From contig JAJZYR010000005.1 in the NCBI GenBank assembly GCA_021797995.1, forward strand, positions 1 to 50,601: a stretch of 50,601 nt of DNA. The letters run 5' to 3'. A model generated the notes under the pieces. It worked only from the letters and a program-made list of their open reading frames with translations. It ran no database searches and was not told the DNA's origin. Below are positions 2,272 through 47,263 of the stretch, piece by piece; position 1 is the first letter of the stretch; every line of letters starts with the position of its first letter. Both the position numbers and the translations under genes were made by a program. The DNA comes from Microcaldota archaeon. Lineage in GTDB: Archaea > Micrarchaeota > Micrarchaeia > Micrarchaeales > CABMGC01.

Positions 2272-3489
2272 ATGATCCATAGGCATTCGTGCATAGTATG
2301 CGGCAGTGAAGACCTTCACAAAGTACTTGATCTTGGTATGATGCCAAGCTCCAACAATCTTGTTGAGAAGAGCCAGCTGAAGAGTGTGAAGAGCTATCCT
2401 CTCGTCTACTATATCTGCACTAACTGCAGTATGTTCCAGTTGCTTGACATAGCCGATAGGGAGGAACTTTTCGACAACTACCTTTACATGACCGGAGTAA
2501 ATAAAGAATTGGTGAAACACTTCGAAGAAATGATAATTGATGAAGTCGTAAAGCCTGGCAATGGGAACGGATTCGGAGTTGTAGTGGGCTCGAATGACGG
2601 CTCAGAAGTAAAATTGCTTAAGGAGACAGGAGGCTTCAAACGGGCCATAGGTGTAGACCCTGCAAAGAACCTGGCCATAATAGCCAATGAGAACGGCATA
2701 TACACAATAAATGATTTTTTTACTGAAAGACTTGGTCAAAAGATTGTCAGTGAGTTTGGTAAGGCAGATTTTGTTACGGCAAACAACGTTTTCGCGCATA
2801 TACCTGATCCTTCAGACATGCTCAAGGGAATGAAGGTCTTGATAAAGGATACTGGTTTCATAATAATAGAGGTTCATTGGCTTAAGAGCATAGTGGAGAA
2901 GCTTGAATTTGAAACACTTTACACAGAGCACTATTATGTATGGTCTGTAAAGTCGATGGATAAACTGTCAGAGAAATGCGGCCTTAATATGGTCGATGTC
3001 AAGTATATGCCAAAGCAGCATGGGGGTTCATTACGATTCAAGTTCATGCTAAGTGGTAAAAATGATCTAAGGCTTGAGTCTGATGAGGAGAAAGCGGGAC
3101 TCTATGACATGAAAATGATGACAGATTTACAGTCGAGAGCAAACCGAAGGAAGGAGGAGTTTATGAAGCTTGTGAACAAGTTAAAGAATAACGGGAAGCG
3201 CATAGCCATTTGGTCCGTCCCTGCGAAAGTACCGACCTTGCTTAATTTCTGTGGGATAACTTCGAAGGAAATCGACTGTGCCTACGAAATTGTGCCGAGT
3301 AAGATAGGCAGGTACATACCAAAAGCAGGGATAGAGGTAAAGGATGAGAAACTTATAAATAGTGACAAGCCCGATTATTTAATCATAGGAGCATGGAACT
3401 ACATGGATTTTGCAAAGGAGAAACTTAAGTGGTATACAGCTCAGGGAGGAAAACTAATCGATCCGCTGAGTGGTAAAGTCCTAGAATGA
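2272..3489 (+). CDS. Sugar C-methyltransferase (zinc-binding N-terminus)
   Basis: A SAM-dependent methyltransferase of the group that methylates carbon atoms of NDP-sugars (NovU/TylC3-like architecture). Residues 7-52 hold a zinc-binding module with Cys7, Cys10, Cys49 and Cys52, followed by a VLDLGMMP-type segment. The Rossmann SAM site is near residue 104 (VVVGSNDGSE). The C-terminal third (KRIAIWSVPAK onward) is the usual extra Rossmann-like domain. At 405 residues it is full length for the family. It is followed after 9 bp by two sugar dehydratase paralogues in the same direction, which supports a role in making a branched or methylated deoxysugar. The actual substrate is unknown. Confidence 0.8.
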   Translation: MIHRHSCIVCGSEDLHKVLDLGMMPSSNNLVEKSQLKSVKSYPLVYYICTNCSMFQLLDIADREELFDNYLYMTGVNKELVKHFEEMIIDEVVKPGNGNGFGVVVGSNDGSEVKLLKETGGFKRAIGVDPAKNLAIIANENGIYTINDFFTERLGQKIVSEFGKADFVTANNVFAHIPDPSDMLKGMKVLIKDTGFIIIEVHWLKSIVEKLEFETLYTEHYYVWSVKSMDKLSEKCGLNMVDVKYMPKQHGGSLRFKFMLSGKNDLRLESDEEKAGLYDMKMMTDLQSRANRRKEEFMKLVNKLKNNGKRIAIWSVPAKVPTLLNFCGITSKEIDCAYEIVPSKIGRYIPKAGIEVKDEKLINSDKPDYLIIGAWNYMDFAKEKLKWYTAQGGKLIDPLSGKVLE

Positions 3490-3498
3490 ATTGATTTT

Positions 3499-4455
3499 AT
3501 GAAGATACTCATAGCAGGCGTCAGTGGGTTCATAGCCACAAACCTAGTCGAGTACTATCTGGCCAGAGGTTCTGCAGATATAATAGGGATATCGAAGGCG
3601 CCTAAGACAGGATCGGAAATTAGGAGAATCGAATCACTTTCTGCAAAGTCAAATGGAAGATTCACATTTAGGCCATGTAACCTGAGAGATAGTATGCAGC
3701 TCAAAAGCATCCTTGACAAGGAGATGCCTGATCTAATAATAGACCTGGCTGCACGATCATCTGTACCGGAAAGCTTTATACATCCATATGAGTTTTACAA
3801 GGACAATGTAGAGACTGTGGTAAATCTAGTCGAATGGCTGCGACACAGTAGCCCGTCTACAAGGGCAATATACTTCAGCACAGAAGCCGTGCTTACAGCA
3901 ACGGGATCTGGTGCCGCCATGGAGCACCTAAATCCGATGAATCCATATGCGGCAAGCAAGGCTGCAGCAGAGCAATATGTGCATGCGTACAATGGTTGCT
4001 TCGACGAAAAAATACAGATAGTGAGACCGACTAACAATTACGGGCCGTATCAGATGCCTAACAGGCTTATAGCAAAGGTTATCGTCAACTGCCTAAATAA
4101 AAACAAGTTCAGGATATACAGGGAAGCGTTACCACCTACGAAAAGGTGGTGGACTTATGTTGAGGACACTTGTGCTGCAGTTGACTTGATATCGAGCAAG
4201 GGAGAACCAAACGGAGTCTATGACATAGTGCCAAAAGACAGACTCTGCGTTGAAGATGTCGTGCACAAGATACTTAAAATGGCAGACTGCGAAAATCTAT
4301 TGGAAGGTTACATGGAGAAGCGCGCCCTCGACAAAGAGGCATACGTATTGGACAGTGCAGAACTATCAAAGCTAGGATGGAAACCGAAATATAGTATTAA
4401 CAAGGGACTTGAGAAGACCTTTGAATGGTACAAGAAGAATTTGAACTTGTTTTGA
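3499..4455 (+). CDS. Dehydratase-like SDR with altered active site
   Basis: An extended short-chain dehydrogenase related to dTDP-glucose 4,6-dehydratase. The NAD site GVSGFIA is at residues 7-13, and the catalytic Tyr150 and Lys154 (YAASK) are kept. The Thr-Asp-Glu triad that dehydratases use for water removal reads T128-E129-A130, so the general acid/base pair is lost. The neighbouring paralogue keeps TDE. The protein may be an epimerase, a reductase, or a partner of the next gene. It lies 9 bp after the methyltransferase and 9 bp before the paralogue, so the three probably form one operon. Confidence 0.75.
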   Translation: MKILIAGVSGFIATNLVEYYLARGSADIIGISKAPKTGSEIRRIESLSAKSNGRFTFRPCNLRDSMQLKSILDKEMPDLIIDLAARSSVPESFIHPYEFYKDNVETVVNLVEWLRHSSPSTRAIYFSTEAVLTATGSGAAMEHLNPMNPYAASKAAAEQYVHAYNGCFDEKIQIVRPTNNYGPYQMPNRLIAKVIVNCLNKNKFRIYREALPPTKRWWTYVEDTCAAVDLISSKGEPNGVYDIVPKDRLCVEDVVHKILKMADCENLLEGYMEKRALDKEAYVLDSAELSKLGWKPKYSINKGLEKTFEWYKKNLNLF

Positions 4456-4464
4456 GGTTTTATA

Positions 4465-5424
4465 TTGAAGACACTAATAACTGGCGTAAACGGTTTCATT
4501 GCAACCAACATGGCCCACTATTATGTGGGTAATACAAAACACGAGATTGTCGGCCTTTCAAAGAATACACACGCCTCTTACGGGCATAGGGATATGATAG
4601 CACTTGCTAATAATAATCCACGATTCAAATACCTTCAGTGCGATTTGCTCGACAGTAACAAGCTTTGGAGTATACTTGATAGGGAAGCTCCGGATCAGAT
4701 AATACACATGGCAGCAGAGGCTGATGTGTCTAGAAGCTTCGAGTATCCATACGACTACCTAAAGACCAACCTAGAGGGAACTCTCAATATACTCGAATGG
4801 ATAAGACGCAACACAGATACAAGGATGGTACACTTTAGTACTGACGAGGTTTTCGGTGAACCGGACCATAGAAGTCTTGAGGAGGAGGTACTTTGCCCAA
4901 AGAACCCTTATTCTGCTAGCAAAGCCGCAACAGAACAGTACGTCAACGCGTATAATGCGTGCTTTGGAACGCAGGTGCAGATGGTAAGGCCAGTAAACAA
5001 TTACGGACCATATCAGGGGACCAACAGGCTTATATCGAAGACGATAATCAGGTGCCTTGAAGATGAGCCGTTCCATCTATTTGCCGAAACCAAGAAGCAT
5101 ACGCGATGGTGGATTTACGTAGAAGATACCTGCAGGGCCGTAGACATGATAATAAGGAAGGGTGAGAAAACAGGCATATATAATGTCACCTCTGATACTG
5201 AAATGGGTGTTGAGGATACCGTAATGTACATACTAGACAAGCTTGAGAAGAAATCGCTCTTTCAAGGATACAATGATTTCAGGCCGAGAGATGACGAAAA
5301 TTACGCACTGGACGGTACAAAACTGAAAAAGCTTGGATGGAAGGAAAAATATACATTCGAGGACGGAATAAGGCAGACAATAGAGTGGTATAGGAAGAAC
5401 ATCAATGACTTCCAGAAGAGGTAG
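4465..5424 (+). CDS. NDP-sugar 4,6-dehydratase (TTG start)
   Basis: An extended SDR with the complete dehydratase signature: NAD-binding GVNGFIA at residues 7-13, Ser125-Thr126-Asp127-Glu128 (STDEVFGEP), Tyr149 and Lys153 (YSASK). It likely converts an NDP-hexose to its 4-keto-6-deoxy form. The start is TTG: no ATG lies near the conserved first beta strand, and TTG at 4465 places MKTLITG correctly. It is clearly paralogous to the gene just upstream (same NYGPYQ and RWW.YVEDTC blocks). It differs from the canonical rmlB at 7.7-8.7 kb, so the window holds three related dehydratases. It ends 3 bp from a convergent glycosyltransferase. Confidence 0.8.
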   Translation: MKTLITGVNGFIATNMAHYYVGNTKHEIVGLSKNTHASYGHRDMIALANNNPRFKYLQCDLLDSNKLWSILDREAPDQIIHMAAEADVSRSFEYPYDYLKTNLEGTLNILEWIRRNTDTRMVHFSTDEVFGEPDHRSLEEEVLCPKNPYSASKAATEQYVNAYNACFGTQVQMVRPVNNYGPYQGTNRLISKTIIRCLEDEPFHLFAETKKHTRWWIYVEDTCRAVDMIIRKGEKTGIYNVTSDTEMGVEDTVMYILDKLEKKSLFQGYNDFRPRDDENYALDGTKLKKLGWKEKYTFEDGIRQTIEWYRKNINDFQKR

Positions 5425-5427
5425 TCA

Positions 5428-6435
5428 TTAATCCATTCTATCATTGTAATTTGTTGACATATGTTTTTTATAGTGCTTATAGAGCTTATATCCCGTTGGT
5501 ATTGCGTTAACCGATGCTTTAATTCTTTTGGGAAGATTGTCTTTCAGTCTTATGCTGGTTATGCTCCTCTTCCTGTTCATCCCTTCTATGGATATCGCAC
5601 TTGATAGAAGTTCTATACCTATCGCCTGGGCCCTTCCGATGGGGCCGTGGTGTTTCAGTGCATAGTATATGTAATTGATCTGGGCGTTATAGAAATTAGT
5701 AAACTTCTTAGATTTACTGGCTACCTGAGATGTTGTGAATCCTTCTAGGTGGACTACATGAGACATGCCGAAATATACTATCTTGTAACCGGCTTTCCTC
5801 ATCCTGATACAATAGTCGACATCCTCACACCCGAAGCAGAATCTCTCATCGAAGAGACCGACTTTGTCCATTGCAGTCTTCCGGATAAGCATCACTGCAC
5901 CAGTGACTCCCTGCACTTCCTCAACTTTATCGTAAATACCTGTATCTCTACTTCCCCTTCCCCTGTTCGCCGCAGTCACACCTATATTCATGCCGCCGTG
6001 TTGGATGTTGCCGTTTGGATAGATAAGTTTGCACCCAACTATGCCAACTTGGTTATTTGCCTCTGCCGTGGCAACCATTTTGCTCAACCAGTCTTTTTTT
6101 TGGAATATCAGGTCGTTGTTGAGCCAGAGTATGTATTTTGTTTTGGGATATTTTCTTGATATATACTTTATTGCCATGTTGGTTTCATACGAGAGACTTA
6201 TGTCCTTCTCATTGATAATGTCAATTTTAGGATATTTTTTCTTTACATGGCTTACAGAGTTGTCGCTGCTGTTTGGGTCTATCATGACTACCTTTAGGTT
6301 ATCGTAATCGGTCTTGGTGAGGGTGCTCAGGCATAGTTCAAGAATTGGTTTCCCCTCGTATTTTATGGACATGCCGTTCCAGTTGAGCACTATTGCAGTT
6401 ACTAATGGATTCTTATTGACCTTTGACATCCACAA
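5428..6435 (-). CDS. GT2 glycosyltransferase (rhamnosyltransferase-like)
   Basis: A soluble GT2 enzyme of the group that includes many rhamnosyltransferases. The donor site begins VTAIVLNWNG. LWLNNDLIF is the metal-binding NND motif near residue 105. GIVGCKLIYPNG and ERFCFGCEDVDYCIR are the conserved acceptor-side blocks. The likely start is the inner ATG at 6429 (MSKVNK). It has no membrane segment. It is similar in layout to the GT2 gene at 11078-12064, so the two probably act in the same glycan. Confidence 0.85.
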   Translation of the reverse strand: MWMSKVNKNPLVTAIVLNWNGMSIKYEGKPILELCLSTLTKTDYDNLKVVMIDPNSSDNSVSHVKKKYPKIDIINEKDISLSYETNMAIKYISRKYPKTKYILWLNNDLIFQKKDWLSKMVATAEANNQVGIVGCKLIYPNGNIQHGGMNIGVTAANRGRGSRDTGIYDKVEEVQGVTGAVMLIRKTAMDKVGLFDERFCFGCEDVDYCIRMRKAGYKIVYFGMSHVVHLEGFTTSQVASKSKKFTNFYNAQINYIYYALKHHGPIGRAQAIGIELLSSAISIEGMNRKRSITSIRLKDNLPKRIKASVNAIPTGYKLYKHYKKHMSTNYNDRMD

Positions 6436-7705: not shown

Positions 7706-8670
7706 ATGCCCACCTTTTGGCGATAATAATCTAATTTTTCAGTATAATAATTTATTGTAAGCCGCAAGCCTTCATTAAATTTAGTCTTAGACTTCCAGCC
7801 TAGTTCTTTGATTATCTTCTTTGCATCTATCGCATATCTTACATCATGGCCCGGTCTATCTTCTACAAACTTGATTAACTTTTCATCTTTACCTAAGATT
7901 CGCAATATCGCTCTTACAACGTCTATGTTATGTCTTTCCTCATTTGCAGATATCAGATATGTTTGCCCGTATTCCCCCTTAAGTAGAATTCTTTCGAGTG
8001 CTGAGCAATGATCTTCTACATAGATCCAATCTCTCACTTGCATGCCATTGCCATAAACAGGTATTGGCTTGTTTAATACTGCGTTTATTATGACCTTTGG
8101 TATAAGTTTTTCCGGATGCTGATAGGATCCATAGTTATTGCTGCAGTTTGAAATAGTAACAGGAAGTTTGTAAGTGTTGAAATACGCGTTTACAAGATGG
8201 TCCGCTGCTGCTTTTGTTGCAGAATATGGGTTTCTTGGATTATATTTGCTTTTTTCTGTGAATTTTGCATGCGAATTGAGCGGAAGTGTGCCATATACTT
8301 CATCTGTAGAAACTTGATGAAACCTAATACCATATCTTCGCGCAACTTCTAAAAGATTATAAACACCTAAAACATTTGATTTAACAAAGTCTTTCGCATT
8401 TCTTATAGAGTTGTCTACATGCGTTTCAGCTGCAAAATTTATTATAGCATCTACATTTTTTGCTACTTTTAATACTGTTTCCTTATTTGCTATATCTTCT
8501 CTTACAAATACATAGTTATATTTGCTTTCGATTCCATCTAGATTATGGAAATCTGCAGCATAGGTTACTTTATCGATGTTTATTATTGTGTCCTTGCCGT
8601 GCTTCTTAAACCAATACCTTATAAAGTTAGAACCTATAAAACCTAACCCACCGGTGACAAGCAATTTCAT
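7702..8670 (-). CDS. rmlB: dTDP-glucose 4,6-dehydratase
   Basis: The second step of dTDP-rhamnose synthesis, giving dTDP-4-keto-6-deoxyglucose. NAD-binding GGLGFIGSN is at residues 7-15. The catalytic STDEVYG holds Thr-Asp-Glu. The YSATK block carries the Tyr and Lys, and NNYGSYQHPEKLIP and RDWIYVEDHC are substrate-loop signatures of true RmlB. At 322 residues it is full length. It overlaps rmlD upstream and rmlA downstream by 4 nt each, which points to translational coupling. Confidence 0.93.
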   Translation of the reverse strand: MKLLVTGGLGFIGSNFIRYWFKKHGKDTIINIDKVTYAADFHNLDGIESKYNYVFVREDIANKETVLKVAKNVDAIINFAAETHVDNSIRNAKDFVKSNVLGVYNLLEVARRYGIRFHQVSTDEVYGTLPLNSHAKFTEKSKYNPRNPYSATKAAADHLVNAYFNTYKLPVTISNCSNNYGSYQHPEKLIPKVIINAVLNKPIPVYGNGMQVRDWIYVEDHCSALERILLKGEYGQTYLISANEERHNIDVVRAILRILGKDEKLIKFVEDRPGHDVRYAIDAKKIIKELGWKSKTKFNEGLRLTINYYTEKLDYYRQKVGI

Positions 8671-9563
8671 TTGCGCACCTTTTCAAACTCTGCTCTAAAG
8701 ATCTTTACAGCATCAGATATTGTAAGCATCTTTGTCTTTGCAGCCTTTTCTGCCTTGGACACATTAAGTGACACTTTTTGCGGTCTCTTCGCAGGCTGAT
8801 TAAGTTCTGATGTTGTTATTGGTTTGATCAATTTTTTGTTTAAACCAAACTCATTTGCCACTATCTTTGCGAATTCATACCTGTTTATAGTGTTTTTACC
8901 TGCTACATTGAACAATCCGCTTTTGTCTTTTTCATAAAGAGCGATTAAAGTTTCAGCAAGACTATTTGTAAGGGTGGGATTGTTGTATTGATCTATTACA
9001 ACCCTAATCTCCTTATTAGCTCTGAGTTGCTCTACAACCCAGGTTGGGAATGGAGTTTTATCGTGGCTCTTACTTATGCCAAACAACACGGCCGTCCTTG
9101 CGATTATATAATCTAGATCTAATGCTTCTATTACTTTTTCTACGATTAGTTTTGTTTTGCCGTAATAGTTTATCGGATGCGGTTTGTCCTTCTCTGAATA
9201 CAGTGTGGCCTTGGTGCCGTCATACACATAATCTGTAGAGATAAAGATTAACTTGCAACCGTTTGTTTTGCAGGCTTCGGCTACATTTTTTGTGCCTTCG
9301 ACATTTGTCTTCCAGGCTTCTTCTAGGTGCAGTTCGCAATAATCAACATTGCTTACTGCATGCGTATCTACTACCAAATCTGGCTTTACCTCATCAAAAA
9401 GCCTAAATACATTGTCTCTTTTTACTACATCCAGCTGATGCATATTTTTAAACTCTGGCTTGTGGATATTATAGGTTCCATGCACCTCGTAATCTTCACT
9501 GCAAGATTCGTAGAGCTTGCTTCCTAACAGGCCACTTGCACCGATTATTAGAAGTTTATCCAT
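8667..9563 (-). CDS. rmlD: dTDP-4-dehydrorhamnose reductase
   Basis: The final step of dTDP-L-rhamnose synthesis, reducing the 4-keto group with NAD(P)H. The dinucleotide site is GASGLLGSKL near residue 8. The SDR Ser/Thr is in STDYVYDG and the Tyr/Lys in NYYGKTK. The C-terminal half (RYEFAKIVANEFG, then KRPQKVSLN) fits the RmlD sugar-binding domain. At 298 residues it is normal length. It is the first gene of its operon, divergent from rmlC across a 51-bp AT-rich gap. Confidence 0.92.
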   Translation of the reverse strand: MDKLLIIGASGLLGSKLYESCSEDYEVHGTYNIHKPEFKNMHQLDVVKRDNVFRLFDEVKPDLVVDTHAVSNVDYCELHLEEAWKTNVEGTKNVAEACKTNGCKLIFISTDYVYDGTKATLYSEKDKPHPINYYGKTKLIVEKVIEALDLDYIIARTAVLFGISKSHDKTPFPTWVVEQLRANKEIRVVIDQYNNPTLTNSLAETLIALYEKDKSGLFNVAGKNTINRYEFAKIVANEFGLNKKLIKPITTSELNQPAKRPQKVSLNVSKAEKAAKTKMLTISDAVKIFRAEFEKVRK

Positions 9564-9614
9564 GAATTTTATTTATATGGTTAAATATTTAAATGTTAAT
9601 ATCATTAAATCATT
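9564..9614. promoter_or_regulatory. Divergent rmlD/rmlC promoter region
   Basis: A 51-bp, almost pure A/T gap between the divergent rmlD and rmlC starts. On the plus strand TTAAATATTTAAATG (about 9581-9595) sits 20-34 nt before the rmlC ATG. On the minus strand an ATATAAAT box precedes rmlD. The spacing suggests leaderless transcripts from back-to-back archaeal TATA boxes. Confidence 0.6.
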
Positions 9615-10151
9615 ATGCCATTTGAATTTAAGCGATTAGAAATTCCGGATGTAATTTTAATAACCCCAAAAGTCTTCTATGACGAACGCGGCTTCTTCAT
9701 GGAAACCTACCAAAAGGATGAGTTCACAAAAGCAGGGATAGCTAGTGAATTTGTACAGCAAAACCACTCAAAGTCAGTTAAAGGTGTATTAAGGGGCTTA
9801 CATTATCAAAAAGAACCGTATGCACAAGCAAAGCTTGTTAGATGCGTAAGAGGCGAGATATTTGATGTAGCTGTTGATATAAGAAAAAATTCACCCACTT
9901 TTGGTAAATATGTTTCTACGATACTTTCAGAAGAAAACAAGAATATGCTTCATATTCCAAGAGGATTTGCGCATGGTTTTGAAGTTTTGAGCGATGAGGC
10001 AGAAGTGGTATACAGCGTGGATAATATCTACTCAAAAGACAGCGAGTCGGGAATTATCTGGAATGATCCCAATATAAGAATTGAATGGCCTATAAAAGAG
10101 CTGATACTATTGGAGAAAGACAAGCGATGGCCGTATATGGAAAAGTTATAG
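9615..10151 (+). CDS. rmlC: dTDP-4-dehydrorhamnose 3,5-epimerase
   Basis: A cupin-fold epimerase acting between RmlB and RmlD. Signatures include DERGFFMETY near the start, the catalytic His region in GVLRGLHYQ, then VRGEIFDVAVDIR and IPRGFAHGF. At 178 residues it is normal length. It is divergent from rmlDBA, so all four genes of the rhamnose pathway are present within 3.2 kb. It is AT-rich like its neighbours. Confidence 0.94.
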   Translation: MPFEFKRLEIPDVILITPKVFYDERGFFMETYQKDEFTKAGIASEFVQQNHSKSVKGVLRGLHYQKEPYAQAKLVRCVRGEIFDVAVDIRKNSPTFGKYVSTILSEENKNMLHIPRGFAHGFEVLSDEAEVVYSVDNIYSKDSESGIIWNDPNIRIEWPIKELILLEKDKRWPYMEKL

Positions 10152-10166
10152 TAAATCTGACCATAG

Positions 10167-11081
10167 TTAGGGCTCAAATTTTCCTAACTGTCCTTTCAGT
10201 CCTTTCAACGTTGCCAATATATATATATGAATAAGTGTAGGAAGATCAGAAAGCCCTTTTGCCAAAAGGTATCGCCTATAGAAGAAAATCACTCCGAACA
10301 GGTATTCGAAAATCGGCAATTGTCCATTTTTAATTAAATAAGCCGAATTTCTTGTGAAGTAGAACAAACGCAATTTATTTTCATAATGGATTATCTTTCC
10401 ACCCATTCTTTTTTCACTTCCTAGTTTATGCTTAACAAATTTTTTTCTTGTTTCCAAAATAAGATAGCCTGCTTTTTTTATTCGACTAGAATATTCACGA
10501 TCTACCTGATCAATAAATAGTTTATTCATGAACTTGAATTTATGTGCTATTTCTGACTTTATCAGCATACCGCTTTGAATCGCACATTTAACTGGTAAAA
10601 AATTTTTGTAAGAACCTTTGCGGCGCTCATATTCTGATTTATCTAAAGTTATCTGATTAAAAACAAATCTATCAATCTTTCTTTTGCCGAATTTTACATG
10701 ATTTAAGCGAATTATTGCTGTTTTATCCTCTATTTGTCTATTAAGCTTTTTGTAGTTTTCAAGTGTTGTTTTTATGGCATCTTTATTAACAATTGTATCT
10801 TGGTCTAAAGTTAAAATCCAACTACAACCACCATTTAGCTCTTTAGTACCTATATTCAACCCTTTGGCTAGCCCGACATTTTGCTTAAGTCCCATAAATT
10901 TTATTTTAAAACTGTGATTATCGTTTTTGAGCGCTAACAGGACTTCTTTAATGTTAATGGACCCGTTATCTATAACTACCAACTTATTTATTTGATTGTC
11001 TAAACTATATACGACCTTCTCAAATCTTCTTACATCTGGATTATACGTAACAATTATTCCACCAATCTTGCAATGAGTCAT
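10167..11081 (-). CDS. GT2 glycosyltransferase, rhamnosyltransferase-like
   Basis: A GT2 enzyme: GIIVTYNPD at the N-terminus, VVIDNGS as the nucleotide-binding strand, LKQNVGLAKGLNIG, and the metal-binding LTLDQDT near residue 95. This pattern (IIVTYNPD with LDQD) is usual in RfbF/WbbL-type rhamnosyltransferases, which fits the adjacent rml genes. It is 304 residues without a clear membrane anchor. Its ATG overlaps the stop of the upstream GT2 gene by 4 nt. Very AT-rich. Confidence 0.82.
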   Translation of the reverse strand: MTHCKIGGIIVTYNPDVRRFEKVVYSLDNQINKLVVIDNGSINIKEVLLALKNDNHSFKIKFMGLKQNVGLAKGLNIGTKELNGGCSWILTLDQDTIVNKDAIKTTLENYKKLNRQIEDKTAIIRLNHVKFGKRKIDRFVFNQITLDKSEYERRKGSYKNFLPVKCAIQSGMLIKSEIAHKFKFMNKLFIDQVDREYSSRIKKAGYLILETRKKFVKHKLGSEKRMGGKIIHYENKLRLFYFTRNSAYLIKNGQLPIFEYLFGVIFFYRRYLLAKGLSDLPTLIHIYILATLKGLKGQLGKFEP

Positions 11082-12064
11082 TTTATCGCTATGTTTGATT
11101 TTTTGTATAATCGTTGCACATCTTTTATCGCTTTTAAGCTTAATAACAATCTAGTAAAAGGTTTTTCTTTAAGCCAGATATTTGATAGTTTTCTTTTTCT
11201 ATCTGGTCCTTCTATACTAGGTATAGCCCCTAAGAAAAAGATAAAAATGGCCTTAAGTCTATTTAACCCGCCAAATTGCTTCAGAGATTTATATTTATGC
11301 ACAAAGTACCAGAAATTAACTTGACCGTGATAAAAACTTTCGAGTCTAATCTTATAAAATTTTGAATTTGTACTAGTAAAACCTTCTAAATGTATTAATT
11401 TCACATTACCCGCATAATATACTTTAAACCCGCTTACTCTGGCTCTAATGTTATAATCTACATCTTCAAAGCCCATAAAGAAGTTTTCGTCTAGTAGACC
11501 TACCTTTTCTATCGTTTTCTTTTTTATTAACGCTGCAGCAAAAGTAACTCCCTCCACTTCTTTTATATAATCAAATTGTAAATAATCTTCTTGCCTTCTT
11601 CCTACGTTCCTAGCCCCATAATAGCCTAGCTCTATGCCAGCATGCTGTATCCTTCCAGTAGGATAAACTAGTTTGCAACCCACAATTCCTATTTTTGAAT
11701 CTGATTCAGCTACTTCTAATAGTTTGTTAAGCCATGAATCATCAGTTATTATTATATCATTATTTAGCAACACTATGTAATCAGGCTTATATTTTTGCAT
11801 TGCGTACTTTATCGTTTTATTGTTGTTTTTTGAAAATCCACCGTTTGAATCATTTACCACAATGTCAATATACGGAAAGTTTTTCTTAACATACTCAATA
11901 CTCCTATCTGTTGATTTATCATCAGCCATTATGATCTTATAATTTTGATATTTGGTCTTCATCAGGCTCGAGAAAACATCCCATAAAATATTGTGCTTTT
12001 TGTAAAAGTATGATGCTCCGTTGTAATTTGAAACTATTATAACAACAAGAGGGAAACCTTTCAT
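11078..12064 (-). CDS. GT2 glycosyltransferase
   Basis: A GT2 enzyme with VVIIVSNYNG at the start, IIMADDKSTD, the metal-binding VLLNNDIII near residue 100, GIVGCKLVYPTGRIQHAG, and FFMGFEDVDYNIR. The block order is the same as in the gene at 5428-6435, so they are probably paralogues acting on successive sugars. The start ATG follows an AAGGGG stretch. It is the first gene of a two-gene operon with the rhamnosyltransferase-like gene. No transmembrane segment. Confidence 0.84.
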   Translation of the reverse strand: MKGFPLVVIIVSNYNGASYFYKKHNILWDVFSSLMKTKYQNYKIIMADDKSTDRSIEYVKKNFPYIDIVVNDSNGGFSKNNNKTIKYAMQKYKPDYIVLLNNDIIITDDSWLNKLLEVAESDSKIGIVGCKLVYPTGRIQHAGIELGYYGARNVGRRQEDYLQFDYIKEVEGVTFAAALIKKKTIEKVGLLDENFFMGFEDVDYNIRARVSGFKVYYAGNVKLIHLEGFTSTNSKFYKIRLESFYHGQVNFWYFVHKYKSLKQFGGLNRLKAIFIFFLGAIPSIEGPDRKRKLSNIWLKEKPFTRLLLSLKAIKDVQRLYKKSNIAIK

Positions 12065-39949: not shown

Positions 39950-40390
39950 TTACGCCTTTTCTACGAACCGACGTCGTACCGGCATCCGTGCCGGCACGCG
40001 AACCCTGACGTTTGAGCCGTCGTGGAGCGAGAGGTTTGTGCGCAGCCTCTCCTTGGATATTATTTCGGCGACATCCACGCGCCGGGATAGCTCCGGAACG
40101 ATAACCGCGCACCTGATTCCGGAAAGCTCGGCGCGGTAGCACATCACATTGCCGAAGCTCCTGCCCTGTTTCCTGAAGCCCTTGACCAGTATGCCCCTCC
40201 TTTTCTTCAGAAGGGCGAATTTCTTGAGGTCTGCACCTGAGAGCCTGATGTTTAGGGTGCCGGAATACGGCGCTATTCCCAGTTTGTCGATAAACTGGAT
40301 TCTGTAGCGCCGCTGCCGCATGTAGTGCCTGCCGCTGCCGGTGCCTGATGCCACGGTTCCGGAAAGGATAATCGATGCTTTGCCTTGCAT
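39950..40390 (-). CDS. ribK: CTP-dependent riboflavin kinase
   Basis: The archaeal riboflavin kinase that makes FMN with CTP. GTVASGTGSGRHYM is the nucleotide loop. IDKLGIAPYSGTLNIRL carries the conserved PY-x-GTLN block, and RCAVIVPELSRR the later strand. It is 146 residues, without the N-terminal HTH found in RbkR-type versions. It lies next to ribH and ribC, completing a small flavin operon. Confidence 0.92.
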   Translation of the reverse strand: MQGKASIILSGTVASGTGSGRHYMRQRRYRIQFIDKLGIAPYSGTLNIRLSGADLKKFALLKKRRGILVKGFRKQGRSFGNVMCYRAELSGIRCAVIVPELSRRVDVAEIISKERLRTNLSLHDGSNVRVRVPARMPVRRRFVEKA

Positions 40391-40408: not shown

Positions 40409-40831
40409 CTATATCCTGCCGAGTTCGCGCAGCATCCTGACTACTGCAGATACGCTGCGTATTGCGTATTCCTCGGCGCGCCTGTCAGCCTGCCCTGGCG
40501 TGGCCCCCGGCCCTATTATGCCAAGGCCCACGGGCTTTCCGTATTTCAGCGATAGCCTGAGCAGCGCCGTTGCGACTGCGTGGCCTATGACCTCGTCGTG
40601 CATTGTCTCCCCTCTTATCACTGCGCCGACAGTCGCCACACCTTCGACGTCTTCCCTCTCGAGCAGTTTCTTCGCTGCCACGGGTATCTCGAACGCCCCC
40701 GGAACCGACACCTCTGCAACCACCTTTATGCCGTGCTTCTTCGCGTAGTCCCTCGCCGCCCCGAGCATCCTTGCCGTGATGCCCTCGTTGAACTCCGATC
40801 TTACTATGGCTATCGAAACCAAGATTATCAC
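40409..40831 (-). CDS. ribH: 6,7-dimethyl-8-ribityllumazine synthase
   Basis: The penultimate step of riboflavin synthesis. EFNEGITARML, then EVSVPGAFEIPVAAKKL, and GAVIRGETMHDEVIGHAV, all conserved substrate-site blocks. It is 140 residues. The start is GTG 40831, which overlaps the ribC stop as GTGA. A nearby TTG two codons downstream would also fit the family. Confidence 0.94.
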   Translation of the reverse strand: MIILVSIAIVRSEFNEGITARMLGAARDYAKKHGIKVVAEVSVPGAFEIPVAAKKLLEREDVEGVATVGAVIRGETMHDEVIGHAVATALLRLSLKYGKPVGLGIIGPGATPGQADRRAEEYAIRSVSAVVRMLRELGRI

Positions 40832-41295
40832 CTGCTGATACTGATACTGCCTGCGTCCTCGCGGCCCTGCCTCCTGCCAGTGCCGGCGCGCTGCTGCAGC
40901 ACCTTCTGGTCGAAGAGGAGCCAGAGGGCGTTCTGGGCATGCTTCCTTGCACGGTCCTCGCAGATCGAGGCGAGCTCTGTATCACTCTTTGCCTCGGCCA
41001 TGTGCACAAATACCTCGAGAATATGCTTGCATTCCGCCAGCTGCACAGCCTGGAGGCCGAGGCTTGCCTCGTGCGCGCACTGCGTGTCTATCGCTGCAGG
41101 ACCGACCATGCCGCATGCTATGACAATGCTGCAGCCCTTCCTGAACAGCATCTTGCATGCTACCGGCAGGTCCTTTATCCCAGGGACGGTATAGCGCTCT
41201 ATTTCGACAGGCGGCTTGCTGGAAGCAAGCACCTTGAGCACCACCGGCGCGTAATCGAACCTCGAGAAGGTTGTATCGGCAACTCCGACTTTCAT
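40828..41295 (-). CDS. ribC: Archaeal-type riboflavin synthase
   Basis: The lumazine-synthase-related archaeal riboflavin synthase, 155 residues. VGVADTTFSRFDYAPVVL is at the N-terminus, followed by YTVPGIKDLPVACK and ACGMVGPAAIDTQCAHEASL, a family hallmark. It is unrelated to the bacterial two-domain RibE. The C-terminal tail (GTGRRQGREDAG) is basic and disordered. It is the first gene of ribC-ribH-ribK, with a TATA-like CGTATAAAC about 60-70 nt upstream. Confidence 0.93.
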   Translation of the reverse strand: MKVGVADTTFSRFDYAPVVLKVLASSKPPVEIERYTVPGIKDLPVACKMLFRKGCSIVIACGMVGPAAIDTQCAHEASLGLQAVQLAECKHILEVFVHMAEAKSDTELASICEDRARKHAQNALWLLFDQKVLQQRAGTGRRQGREDAGSISISR

Positions 41296-41418: not shown

Positions 41419-41925
41419 ATGCACGGCGATGAACCAACGGTTATGAGGATAGGAGAGGGCAGGGACATCCACAGGCTCGTGGCAGGCAGGAAGCTTGTCC
41501 TGGGCGGGGTGGAAATACCATATGAAAAGGGGCTTGAGGGATGGAGCGATGCCGACGTGCTAGTGCATGCGGTAGTCGACGCCCTGCTGGGCGCTGCAGG
41601 CCTCGGCGACATAGGAACACACTTCCCTGCCGGAGATGCACGGTTCAAGAACGTGCCGAGCACCGTCTTCCTTGAGGAGACGGCAAGGAAGCTTAAGGAG
41701 CTTGGCTGGGGCATAGTTAACATAGACGCGACCATAATGGCCGAGAGGCCGAAGCTCAGGCCTTTCATTGATGAGATGAAGGAGGAGATAGGCAGGGCGC
41801 TTGCAGTGCCTGCTGAATGCATAAACATCAAGGCAGGGACTGCCGAGGGTATGGGGTATGTAGGCAGGGGGGAGGGCATGGAGGCGCATGCGGTCTCGCT
41901 GATACGGAAGCTCGGGCCTGGCTAA
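41419..41925 (+). CDS. ispF: MEcPP synthase (MEP pathway)
   Basis: Forms 2-C-methyl-D-erythritol 2,4-cyclodiphosphate. GEGRDIHRL holds the zinc Asp and His. WSDADVLVHAVVDALLGAAG adds the third zinc ligand, and GTAEGMGYVGRGEGMEAHAV is the C-terminal nucleotide-binding block. ATG 41419 lies about 25 nt after a TTATAATG box (leaderless); the inner ATG 41443 (MRIGEG) matches the usual N-terminus. It converges on ispD with a 4-nt overlap. The MEP pathway is bacterial, and most archaea lack it. Confidence 0.95.
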   Translation: MHGDEPTVMRIGEGRDIHRLVAGRKLVLGGVEIPYEKGLEGWSDADVLVHAVVDALLGAAGLGDIGTHFPAGDARFKNVPSTVFLEETARKLKELGWGIVNIDATIMAERPKLRPFIDEMKEEIGRALAVPAECINIKAGTAEGMGYVGRGEGMEAHAVSLIRKLGPG

Positions 41926-42638
41926 GCTTTCTGCTCCTGCCTTTGCTGCTTCCTGCGCTGCCACAGTGCTGCAGCAACGCTGATGTCTGTCGGCATTGTT
42001 ATCTTTATGTTGTCGTATGAGCCCGTGAAGAGCTTTACTCTGCTTCCAAGCCTCTCCGCCATCGATGCATCATCGGTAACGTCGTCCGTGATGGTCGCGT
42101 GCGCCTTTTTCAGAAGCTCCGTGTCGAATATCTGCGGCGTCTGCACTGCCCAGAGCTTGTGCCTTGGGATGGTACTTGCCACTGTTCCGTCATCGTGTGC
42201 CATCTTTATTGTGTCGATGACAGGCACTGCCGCTATTGCCACCCCTGTCTCTGCTACGGCGCCTATGGCTGCTTCCATCATCTCCTGGGTGACGAAAGGC
42301 CTGGCTGCGTCGTGGACGATTACATAGTCGCAGCCCCCAAGAGCGCTGAGGCCCGCCGCTACGGAGTCCTGCCTCCTCTTCCCGCCTGTGCATACCTTCT
42401 TCACTTTTGAAAACCCTTCCCTTGAGATGATCGCGGCGTACTCGCTGGCTCTTGCCTTGCTGGCCACGAGTATTACGTGGTCTATGCTTCCGCAGTCCTC
42501 AAATGCCTGGAGAGTCCTTGACAGGACGGTCCTGCCGCACAGGTCAAGGGTAAGCTTGTCGGTCCCTCCCATACGGGTGCTGCTCCCTCCGGCGACAATT
42601 ATGGCTGCGACCTTCTTCCCTGCTCTAGTGGCTTCCAT
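41922..42638 (-). CDS. ispD: MEP cytidylyltransferase (MEP pathway)
   Basis: Couples CTP and methylerythritol phosphate. IIVAGGSSTRMGGTDKL is the CTP loop with Arg and Lys. GGKRRQDSVAAGL, VIVHDAARPFV, and the C-terminal VTDDASMAERLG, then IKITMPTD complete the family set. The start at ATG 42638 is supported by a TATATATTC box about 27 nt upstream (42661-42669); ATG 42686 would overlap ispE. It is 238 residues. Confidence 0.94.
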   Translation of the reverse strand: MEATRAGKKVAAIIVAGGSSTRMGGTDKLTLDLCGRTVLSRTLQAFEDCGSIDHVILVASKARASEYAAIISREGFSKVKKVCTGGKRRQDSVAAGLSALGGCDYVIVHDAARPFVTQEMMEAAIGAVAETGVAIAAVPVIDTIKMAHDDGTVASTIPRHKLWAVQTPQIFDTELLKKAHATITDDVTDDASMAERLGSRVKLFTGSYDNIKITMPTDISVAAALWQRRKQQRQEQKA

Positions 42639-42678
42639 GGATGTCTGATGGGCAGAACTCGAATATATACCTTTTTTC

Positions 42679-43566
42679 CTATTCAACAGGAGACGAAGTG
42701 GCGGTTTCGGTCAGTATGCACCTGATCCCGCAGTCGCTGAGCTTTTTGAGCAGCGCCTCGGCCTCCAGGCGGGTCTCCGCCATGGAGAACAGAGTGGGGC
42801 CGGCTCCGCAGAGGTGGACCGCGTCTGCCCCGGCCTCGCGGACCCTTTTCATGTACTCTCCGATGCCGCGATAGCACGCCGGAGCCACATTCTCGAATAC
42901 GTTGACTATGTCGGCCGCCCTTACGCCTTCGTGGTTCTTTATGCGCACGGAGAGTGCGTCGGTCGCAGAGCCGTCTGTATAATCAGACCGGCTAAGCGCA
43001 GCATAGAGGCTGGCGGTCTTCCTTTCAGGAACTTCGACTTTTGGAAAGATCAATAGGACTGGTGTGGGCCTGATGCCTGGAAGCGGGGTCATGATTTCCC
43101 CCTTCCCTGAAACCAGGGCCGTACCGCGGTAGAGGAAATATGGCACATCGGATCCGAGGGATGCGGCGAGGTTATGGATGTCCGGGCGGCTGAGGCCGAG
43201 CTGCCAGAGCCTGTTGAGGCCAAGAAGTACGGCAAGCGCGCAGCTGCTATCCCCTCCTAGGCCCGATGAGAGCGGTATGCGCTTCTTGATGGATATCCTT
43301 GCGCCTTTGGTACAGCCTGTCGTATGGTACAGCAGTTCCGCCGCCTTTGACACAAGGCTCCTGCGCCAGTCGAACTCCCCGCTGTCGGCATCGAATGAAA
43401 CATGCGCTGAGGCATCGGAACGGAATGTAAGCGTGTCGCAGAATGCAAGGGATTGCAGTATGCTCCGCAGCTCGTGGAAGCCGTCTGGCCTGTCTGAGAG
43501 GACTTCCAGCGTCAGATTAACCTTTGCAGGGGCGCTGATGCTGAATTCCGCCCGGTCCGTGCCCAT
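42679..43566 (-). CDS. ispE: CDP-ME kinase (MEP pathway)
   Basis: A GHMP kinase that phosphorylates CDP-methylerythritol. APAKVNLTLEV with the active-site Lys and Asn, RPDGFHELRSI, then the ATP loop IPLSSGLGGDSSCA, GSDVPYFLYRGTA with the catalytic Asp, and the C-terminal VHLCGAGPTLF. It is 295 residues. A TTTATAAATA-type box and an AGGAG-like site lie just upstream. It is next to ispD. Confidence 0.94.
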   Translation of the reverse strand: MGTDRAEFSISAPAKVNLTLEVLSDRPDGFHELRSILQSLAFCDTLTFRSDASAHVSFDADSGEFDWRRSLVSKAAELLYHTTGCTKGARISIKKRIPLSSGLGGDSSCALAVLLGLNRLWQLGLSRPDIHNLAASLGSDVPYFLYRGTALVSGKGEIMTPLPGIRPTPVLLIFPKVEVPERKTASLYAALSRSDYTDGSATDALSVRIKNHEGVRAADIVNVFENVAPACYRGIGEYMKRVREAGADAVHLCGAGPTLFSMAETRLEAEALLKKLSDCGIRCILTETATSSPVE

Positions 43567-43706
43567 GATATGCTTTATCTCCTGTTATTTATAAAATAAA
43601 GTGTTAGGGCGCACGGCTCTTGGCCGCAGGATATGCACAATAGCAATGATGCAGGCGCACGCGCACCGGCAAGCTGGGTCGTATAGCAGATTATAGTGGT
43701 TGTGGT

Positions 43707-43780
43707 TGCCGCAGGTCGGATTTGAACCGACGACATTCCGGTCTTCAGCCGGACACTCTCCCGAGCTGAGTTACTGCGGC
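43707..43780 (-). tRNA. tRNA-Phe (GAA)
   Basis: A 74-nt cloverleaf on the minus strand: acceptor GCCGCAG with CTGCGGC, D stem ACTC/GAGT, anticodon stem TCCGG/CCGGA around CTGAAGA (anticodon GAA), T stem GTCGG/CCGAC with TTCAAAT. Discriminator A, no encoded CCA, no intron. Confidence 0.95.
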
Positions 43781-43899
43781 ACGATGGATAGGCGCCTTTT
43801 TGATGCTGCCCGTGTTTTGTTTTGCATGTATAGTTGGCAGCACAACGACCGGGCCAAGACGAGCGGCCTGCTTCCGGTGTGGGATAGTTGCATGGAAAG

Positions 43900-46311: not shown

Positions 46312-46321
46312 GGTGAAGGGG

Positions 46322-47263
46322 ATGGACAACTACGCGGATAAACTGCTGAATGCGGTGAAGAGGAAGGGCAATCCATGCATAGTGGGACTGGATCCGAGGC
46401 TAGACCAGATGCCTGACTTTGTAAAAGCAACACCGCGCGACAACCTTGACAGGGCTGTGCGTAGGAGCATCATCGCGTATCATAAATGCATCATAAGGGC
46501 CGTTGCGGGACTTGTGCCAGGAGTCAAGCTGCAGAGCGCGTTCTACGAGCAGTATGGCATCGGAGGGATGCAGGCCTTCATGGACACGGTGCGGTACGCA
46601 AGGGAACGCGGCCTTGTGGTGATAATAGACGCAAAACGCAATGACATATCGTCTACTGCGGAGGCATATGCGAACGCATTCCTGGGCAGGACGCAAATAT
46701 TCGGGAATTCGACCAAGGTCATAGACGCAGACTGCATAACGGTATCGCCGTACCTGGGAAAGGACAGCCTCGATCCCTTTGTCGAGGCCTGCAAGGCATA
46801 TGGGAAGGGCATCTTCATACTCGTGAAGACCTCGAATCCAGGCTCCTCGGATCTCCAGGACAGGAAGCTCTCCGACGGCAGCGAGCTTTACATCAGGGTT
46901 GCAGGGCTGGTGAACAGGTATTCAGAAGGATTGACTGGCGAGCTGGGCTACAGCCCAATAGGAGCAGTGGTTGGGGCAACGTTTCCGGAGGAGGCCATGC
47001 GACTTAGAAAGCTTATGCCCAGGTCGATCTTTTTGGTTCCAGGCTACGGGGCACAAGGAGGCACCGCGGCGATGGCGGCGGAGTGCTTCAATGACGACGG
47101 ATATGGAGCGGTGGTCAACGCCTCAAGGAGCCTGACTTACGGCCTGGGCTCTCCTGGGATAAGCAGATCAGAGGCGGTGAAGGAGATAAAGAACAGGACG
47201 AAGGAAATGATAGAGCGCGTAAACGAAGCAATCAGAACCAAGACAGAGAAGCGATCCGCATGA
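46322..47263 (+). CDS. pyrF: Orotidine 5'-phosphate decarboxylase, type 2
   Basis: The last step of UMP synthesis. CIVGLDPRLDQMP at the N-terminus, LQSAFYEQYG, the catalytic VVIIDAKRNDISSTAEAYANAF (Asp-x-Lys-x2-Asp), SPYLGKDSLDPF, and the C-terminal VPGYGAQGG with ASRSLTY. At about 313 residues it is the long type 2 form seen mainly in bacteria; most archaea use the 210-230-residue type 1. The start ATG 46322 is preceded by GGTGA; GTG 46313 is less likely. Confidence 0.92.
   Translation: MDNYADKLLNAVKRKGNPCIVGLDPRLDQMPDFVKATPRDNLDRAVRRSIIAYHKCIIRAVAGLVPGVKLQSAFYEQYGIGGMQAFMDTVRYARERGLVVIIDAKRNDISSTAEAYANAFLGRTQIFGNSTKVIDADCITVSPYLGKDSLDPFVEACKAYGKGIFILVKTSNPGSSDLQDRKLSDGSELYIRVAGLVNRYSEGLTGELGYSPIGAVVGATFPEEAMRLRKLMPRSIFLVPGYGAQGGTAAMAAECFNDDGYGAVVNASRSLTYGLGSPGISRSEAVKEIKNRTKEMIERVNEAIRTKTEKRSA

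Follow-up and report, generated by a model that had tools for sequence, protein, structure and literature searches.

The window analysed here is a stretch of 50,601 nucleotides from a Micrarchaeales archaeon (contig JAJZYR010000005.1; source genome G000), and it carries genes for three enzymes of the MEP pathway. These are ispF (2-C-methyl-D-erythritol 2,4-cyclodiphosphate synthase; 41419-41925, plus strand), ispD (MEP cytidylyltransferase; 41922-42686, minus strand) and ispE (CDP-ME kinase; 42679-43566, minus strand), which were identified by scores above the curated NCBIfam cut-offs for TIGR00151 (198.5 bits, cut-off 116.5), TIGR00453 (218.7 bits, cut-off 181.3) and TIGR00154 (178.5 bits, cut-off 138.7), respectively. 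All three proteins align well with solved enzymes and retain their catalytic motifs, which confirms the initial annotation of the genes as intact. The listed start of ispD is a TTG, with a possible ATG 16 codons further in. The convergent ispF and ispD genes overlap by 4 nt (41922-41925), also as first annotated. An archaeal-type riboflavin synthase gene, ribC (40828-41295, minus strand; TIGR01506, 170.5 bits, cut-off 100.6), lies 123 bp to the left of the ispDEF insertion, and a tRNA-Phe (gaa) gene (43703-43781, minus strand) lies about 140 bp to its right on the same contig. A profile match places a CTP-dependent riboflavin kinase gene (39950-40390) on the archaeal flank as well, so the surroundings are archaeal as had been claimed. 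The GC and GC3 values of ispDEF match those of the neighbouring genes. Elsewhere in the window, an orotidine-5'-phosphate decarboxylase of the mainly bacterial PyrF subfamily 2 type (TIGR02127) is encoded at 46313-47263 (plus strand) on this archaeal contig, and positions 8001-12000 form a low-GC segment (0.32-0.36, against 0.51 over the window and 0.58 around ispDEF) that is possibly a recent acquisition.

Three further enzymes of the pathway are encoded together on one other contig of the genome, which totals 945,531 bases in 32 contigs and is 94.6% complete. On this contig (C24, L005), dxr (1011-2342) is followed by two genes of the YjbQ/UPF0047 family, T1 (2619-3026) and T2 (3035-3478), then by ispH (3561-4520) and ispG (4504-5793), and after ispG by proline dehydrogenase-like, APRT-like and UppS-like genes. 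All three enzymes (DXR, IspH, IspG) give good alignments with counterparts of solved structure. The DXR proteins of G000, G226, genus g10 (with G212) and genus g47 have DSEPxA in place of DSEHxA and Arg in place of the Asp before the phosphate-binding Ser, plus an insertion. In the G000 protein the second change turns VDSAT into TRSAT, and both differences also appear when this protein is aligned to solved DXR. Most other members have the canonical residues at these sites. To judge from the alignments, the changes may alter substrate binding.

Among 295 genomes of the phylum, convincing DXR was found in 17 that belong to the window's order (families f1 and f2) and in 7 from other families. Matches to PF02670 of only 36-45 residues (E = 5e-5 to 7e-4; G036, G119, G173, G199 and G290) were excluded from this count. 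The "lipid divide" pairs archaea with the mevalonate route and bacteria with the MEP route. The absence of HMG-CoA reductase, by which we judged the mevalonate route, suggests that in G000 the MEP pathway has taken over from mevalonate. The enzyme was not found in any of the three dxr-bearing members identified in the genus (G000, G049 and G226), whereas it is present in three congeners without dxr (G127, G159 and G167). Across the order it is absent from 15 of the 17 dxr-bearing genomes, with a full-length match in G130 and a fragment in G212. In a comparison of gene blocks (L005 5926-8270 with L114 and L115), HMG-CoA reductase of G167, and of a cut-off contig of G159, is flanked by APRT on one side and a proline dehydrogenase-like gene on the other, with UppS alongside. 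At that block G000 and G226 have no HMG-CoA reductase, and the dxr-T1-T2-ispH-ispG cassette adjoins the same genes. This arrangement seems to capture the exchange of one pathway for the other inside a single genus. Mevalonate genes have been reported for Micrarchaeales in general (PMC12892359).

DXS, the enzyme that controls flux through the MEP pathway in bacteria, was not found in G000. Searches with PF13292 and TIGR00204 gave weak matches only, and the weak PF13292 match is a pyruvate dehydrogenase E1 subunit. None of the 17 genomes of the order with dxr has a TIGR00204 match over the cut-off, whereas all 7 from other families do. Overall, DXS passes the cut-off in eight genomes, all of other families, and the one without convincing DXR is G277 (61% complete). 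Genome incompleteness cannot account for a count of zero in 17. Of the two initial readings, the one in which the full MEP pathway had been acquired from bacteria is supported for dxr and ispD through ispH, which are present with intact active-site motifs, but not for dxs, which neither G000 nor any other dxr-bearing member of the order possesses.

MEP genes in Micrarchaeota have already been published (PMC12892359), and their presence alone is not new. That report calls the Micrarchaeales pathway complete and describes dxs, unlike the other genes, as not horizontally acquired. The absence of DXS in the window's order qualifies this description of a complete pathway, and the non-transferred dxs may be an annotation of transketolase or E1-like proteins. 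We found no published account of the pattern in which DXS is absent from 17 of 17 dxr-bearing members of the order and present in 7 of 7 elsewhere. Among bacteria, a 2023 survey described species with all MEP enzymes but Dxs, and expected the replacement to be an unknown enzyme in 172 of 181 of them (PMC10663253).

The T1/T2 pair of YjbQ genes, in tandem or fused, is strongly associated with the DXS-less pathway. It occurs in 14 of the 17 genomes with dxr and without dxs, but neither the 48 dxr-less members of the order nor the 8 genomes with dxs have it (Fisher test, 1e-11, with shared ancestry ignored); the genomes are MAGs, the counts are of species and not of independent events, and cassettes have been exchanged. 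Six genera have the pair (g1, g10, g30, g39, g47 and g48), and both states exist inside one genus. Most of the pairs neighbour MEP genes, in several gene orders. The order dxr-T1-T2-ispH-ispG is shared by G000, G049 and G226. Tandem genes are also found with ispH and ispG in G007 (ispG-ispH-T2-T1) and with ispG in G249 and G114, and fused genes lie near ispG in G082, G172 and G191 and near ispE-ispF in G091 and G130. Three genomes (G013, G291 and G212) have dxr and no recognised pair. A scan of contigs turned up five members of the order and an Aenigmatarchaeota contig carrying a single YjbQ, and was uninformative. Other candidates, namely the genes around isolated dxr copies and a 211-aa ORF upstream of dxr, were set aside for lack of recurrence across genera. 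That the YjbQ pair takes part in this pathway is well supported. Its role could concern a step other than DXP supply, since it lies as near to ispG and ispH as to dxr and travels with them: between G000 and G007, T2 is 73% identical, IspG 83% and IspH 76%, with DXR at only 47%.

By hhalign (97.9%, E = 3e-13), the N-terminal domain of the fused protein is closest to T1 and less close to canonical YjbQ, T2 and the C-terminal domain of the fusion itself, which indicates that the tandem and the fusion are one and the same pair. Profile comparison assigns the C-terminal domain to T2/canonical YjbQ. In T1 the E-x-E and G-x-W-Q motifs remain but the histidines are gone; in T2, Y-x-H and N-G-x-x-H remain but W-Q is gone. 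This complementary loss, as read from the alignments, would be expected of a heteromer with composite active sites. T2 passes TIGR00149, and T1 falls below its cut-off (57.5 versus 67.75). The predicted fold of the fused protein is of moderate confidence (pLDDT 65.5, with about 85 for the C-terminal domain), and a structure search with it returned only YjbQ structures as significant matches with meaningful TM-scores. T1 and T2 share the fold and part of the motif set of the YjbQ/UPF0047 family (TIGR00149; 1vph, 2p6c and 1ve0), but they differ in forming an obligate-looking pair with complementary motif loss and linkage to MEP genes. To our knowledge, this family is known only as "secondary thiamine-phosphate synthase", and we found no literature that links YjbQ to isoprenoid synthesis.

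A second family with a similar distribution is a divergent 6-phosphogluconate dehydrogenase (6PGDH)-like paralogue that forms its own clade (clade II). It is present in 12 of the 17 dxr-bearing genomes versus 1 of the 48 without dxr (G251, 70% complete). The gene adjoins the fused YjbQ gene in g10 and g47 and lies elsewhere in the genome in g1, g30, g39 and g54, with the G000 copy at C22 1563-2471. It was not found in G114, G226 and G130, which have the YjbQ pair. Clade II proteins keep the catalytic Lys and Asn, have Phe in place of Glu in nearly all cases and have lost the Arg of RGYL. We take the Lys and Glu to be catalytic in 6PGDH and the Arg to bind the substrate, the latter two serving the decarboxylation of 6-phosphogluconate. 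G000 and many relatives also encode a canonical 6PGDH, an enzyme that yields ribulose 5-phosphate.

These observations lead us to propose that ispDEF of G000 are working parts of an MEP pathway that replaces mevalonate and starts without DXS, and that the YjbQ pair, probably together with the clade II dehydrogenase, supplies DXP. We regard this reading as evenly poised between right and wrong. A more specific version, which we offer tentatively and consider somewhat short of an even bet, is that Micrarchaeota possess a natural DXS-independent DXP synthase composed of heteromeric T1/T2 and a neofunctionalised 6PGDH-like reductase acting on a pentulose 5-phosphate. The T1/T2 heteromer would act on this substrate, for example ribulose 5-phosphate from the canonical 6PGDH, at a composite active site located at the subunit interface. 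The clade II dehydrogenase would serve as the reductase, giving by net dehydration and reduction 1-deoxy-D-xylulose 5-phosphate, which DXR would then use. Formally, DXP arises from ribulose 5-phosphate by one dehydration and one reduction, which would suit an enolising or dehydrating YjbQ pair with a reductase. The substrate and reaction suggested for T1/T2 are guesses from this chemistry and from precedents in Escherichia coli. In E. coli without DXS, overexpressed yajO or ribB G108S/D113G variants yield DXP from ribulose 5-phosphate, and aceE mutants also make DXP (PMC8791446, PMC3424233). The route proposed here resembles these in making DXP without DXS, and the first two also in its source, but it would be natural, clade-wide and built from unrelated protein families. 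Three genomes with dxr and the YjbQ pair (G007, G249 and G031; 97, 75 and 92% complete), of which G007 and G249 also have ispG and ispH, have no recognised ispD, ispF or HMG-CoA reductase. They may represent a partial or divergent pathway, which the model leaves unexplained, and together with the close link of the pair to ispG and ispH they call for the most caution about the model.

DXP might instead be made in sufficient amounts by a promiscuous housekeeping enzyme, pyruvate dehydrogenase E1 or RibB, with the YjbQ pair doing another job in or near the pathway, perhaps together with IspG/IspH or in the metabolism of thiamine. Genes for E1 alpha and beta are present in G000, riboflavin genes flank ispF, and mutated aceE and ribB provide the E. 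coli precedent (PMC3424233). We nevertheless consider this explanation unlikely, since a promiscuous enzyme would leave the strict association of the YjbQ pair with the DXS-less pathway unexplained. E1 was rejected as the DXS because it does not track the pathway: E1-like matches occur equally in dxr-less relatives and are missing in G114, and they show no correlation with dxr.

A methylthioadenosine-isoprenoid shunt could also provide DXP. In this scheme MtnA and a RuBisCO-like protein would convert methylthioribose phosphate to methylthioxylulose 5-phosphate, which would be de-thiomethylated to DXP. The shunt is known in Rhodospirillum rubrum and has been proposed for some Dxs-less bacteria (PMC10663253). 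G000 has a cluster of canonical YjbQ, RuBisCO-like protein and MtnA genes on contig C9 (L145, 2241-5119), as do G049 and G079; its MtnA passes TIGR00512, and inspection of its RuBisCO-like sequence reveals no usual loop-6 lysine motif. However, no cupin methylsulfurylase was noticed among the genes beside the cluster, and the G049 copy is broken across two frames. Only 3 of the 17 genomes with dxr and without dxs have RuBisCO-like proteins, and RuBisCO-family proteins occur in several DXS-bearing ones, so this distribution rules out the shunt as the general source of DXP. We retain it for G000 and judge it quite unlikely overall. The canonical YjbQ in this cluster possibly belongs to an MTA-related pathway, which would be a clue to the function of canonical YjbQ.

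Uptake of DXP, 1-deoxyxylulose or MEP from a partner organism, with the remaining genes finishing the pathway, is a very unlikely source. Dependence on a host is common among Micrarchaeota, and additional MEP genes are missing from some members of the order. However, phosphorylated intermediates are poorly exchanged, the hosts known for Micrarchaeota are archaea with the mevalonate route, and the two extra gene families common to these genomes fit a replacement enzyme.

Contamination or an assembly chimera, which IspE and IspF might suggest by grouping with bacterial sequences and differing from those of congeners, is exceedingly improbable, in line with the initial judgement that it is unlikely, and is largely refuted by the archaeal flanks on the same contig, the matching GC and GC3, the single copies of ispF and ispD in the genome and the synteny of dxr, ispH and ispG with those of the congener G226. 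Comparison with G226 does separate two sets of genes: DXR (67% identity), IspG (81%) and IspH (74%) are well conserved, and IspE (25%) and IspF (34%) are not. The window IspF is 54% identical to Burkholderia IspF and 28-36% identical to those of congeners and related genera, and its IspE is 23-26% identical to IspE of the same relatives, whereas among the other members of g1, g10 and g47 both proteins are for the most part 47-69% alike between genera. Small trees group the window IspE and IspF with bacteria and place IspD, on a long branch, as the sister of the archaeal sequences. Since ispE and ispF group with bacteria and not with congeners, at least these two genes are best read as a second, later bacterial acquisition that displaced older copies. 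The overlap of 4 nt between ispF and ispD is weak evidence for the long residence initially deduced from it. A plasmid search did not identify the donor of ispE and ispF, its best matches being near 35% identity.

The pathway of G000 resembles the bacterial MEP (DOXP) pathway in its bacterial-type DXR, IspD, IspE, IspF, IspG and IspH with conserved catalytic motifs, but it occurs without DXS in an archaeon that lacks HMG-CoA reductase, and it is accompanied by the YjbQ pair and the 6PGDH-like paralogue. Acquired bacterial MEP genes are a feature it shares with other DPANN archaea (Micrarchaeota and Woesearchaeota; PMC12892359, PMC8204110, PMC8421398). Woesearchaeota are described with dxs and a fused ispDF, whereas the window genes are separate, and in contrast to the complete pathway reported for Micrarchaeota (PMC12892359), DXS is undetectable in the window's order. 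Dxs-less bacteria likewise have all MEP enzymes save Dxs (PMC10663253), but here the organism is archaeal and a candidate replacement can be named from co-occurrence and gene order.

With respect to the lipid divide, sister species of one archaeal genus differ in their route to isoprenoids, and the MEP pathway here operates without DXS, its flux-controlling enzyme in bacteria. For the Dxs substitute that was predicted as probable (PMC10663253), the YjbQ pair offers a concrete candidate that is small and easy to express. If the proposal is true, it would give the YjbQ fold a physiological function and provide a candidate Dxs replacement in other organisms.
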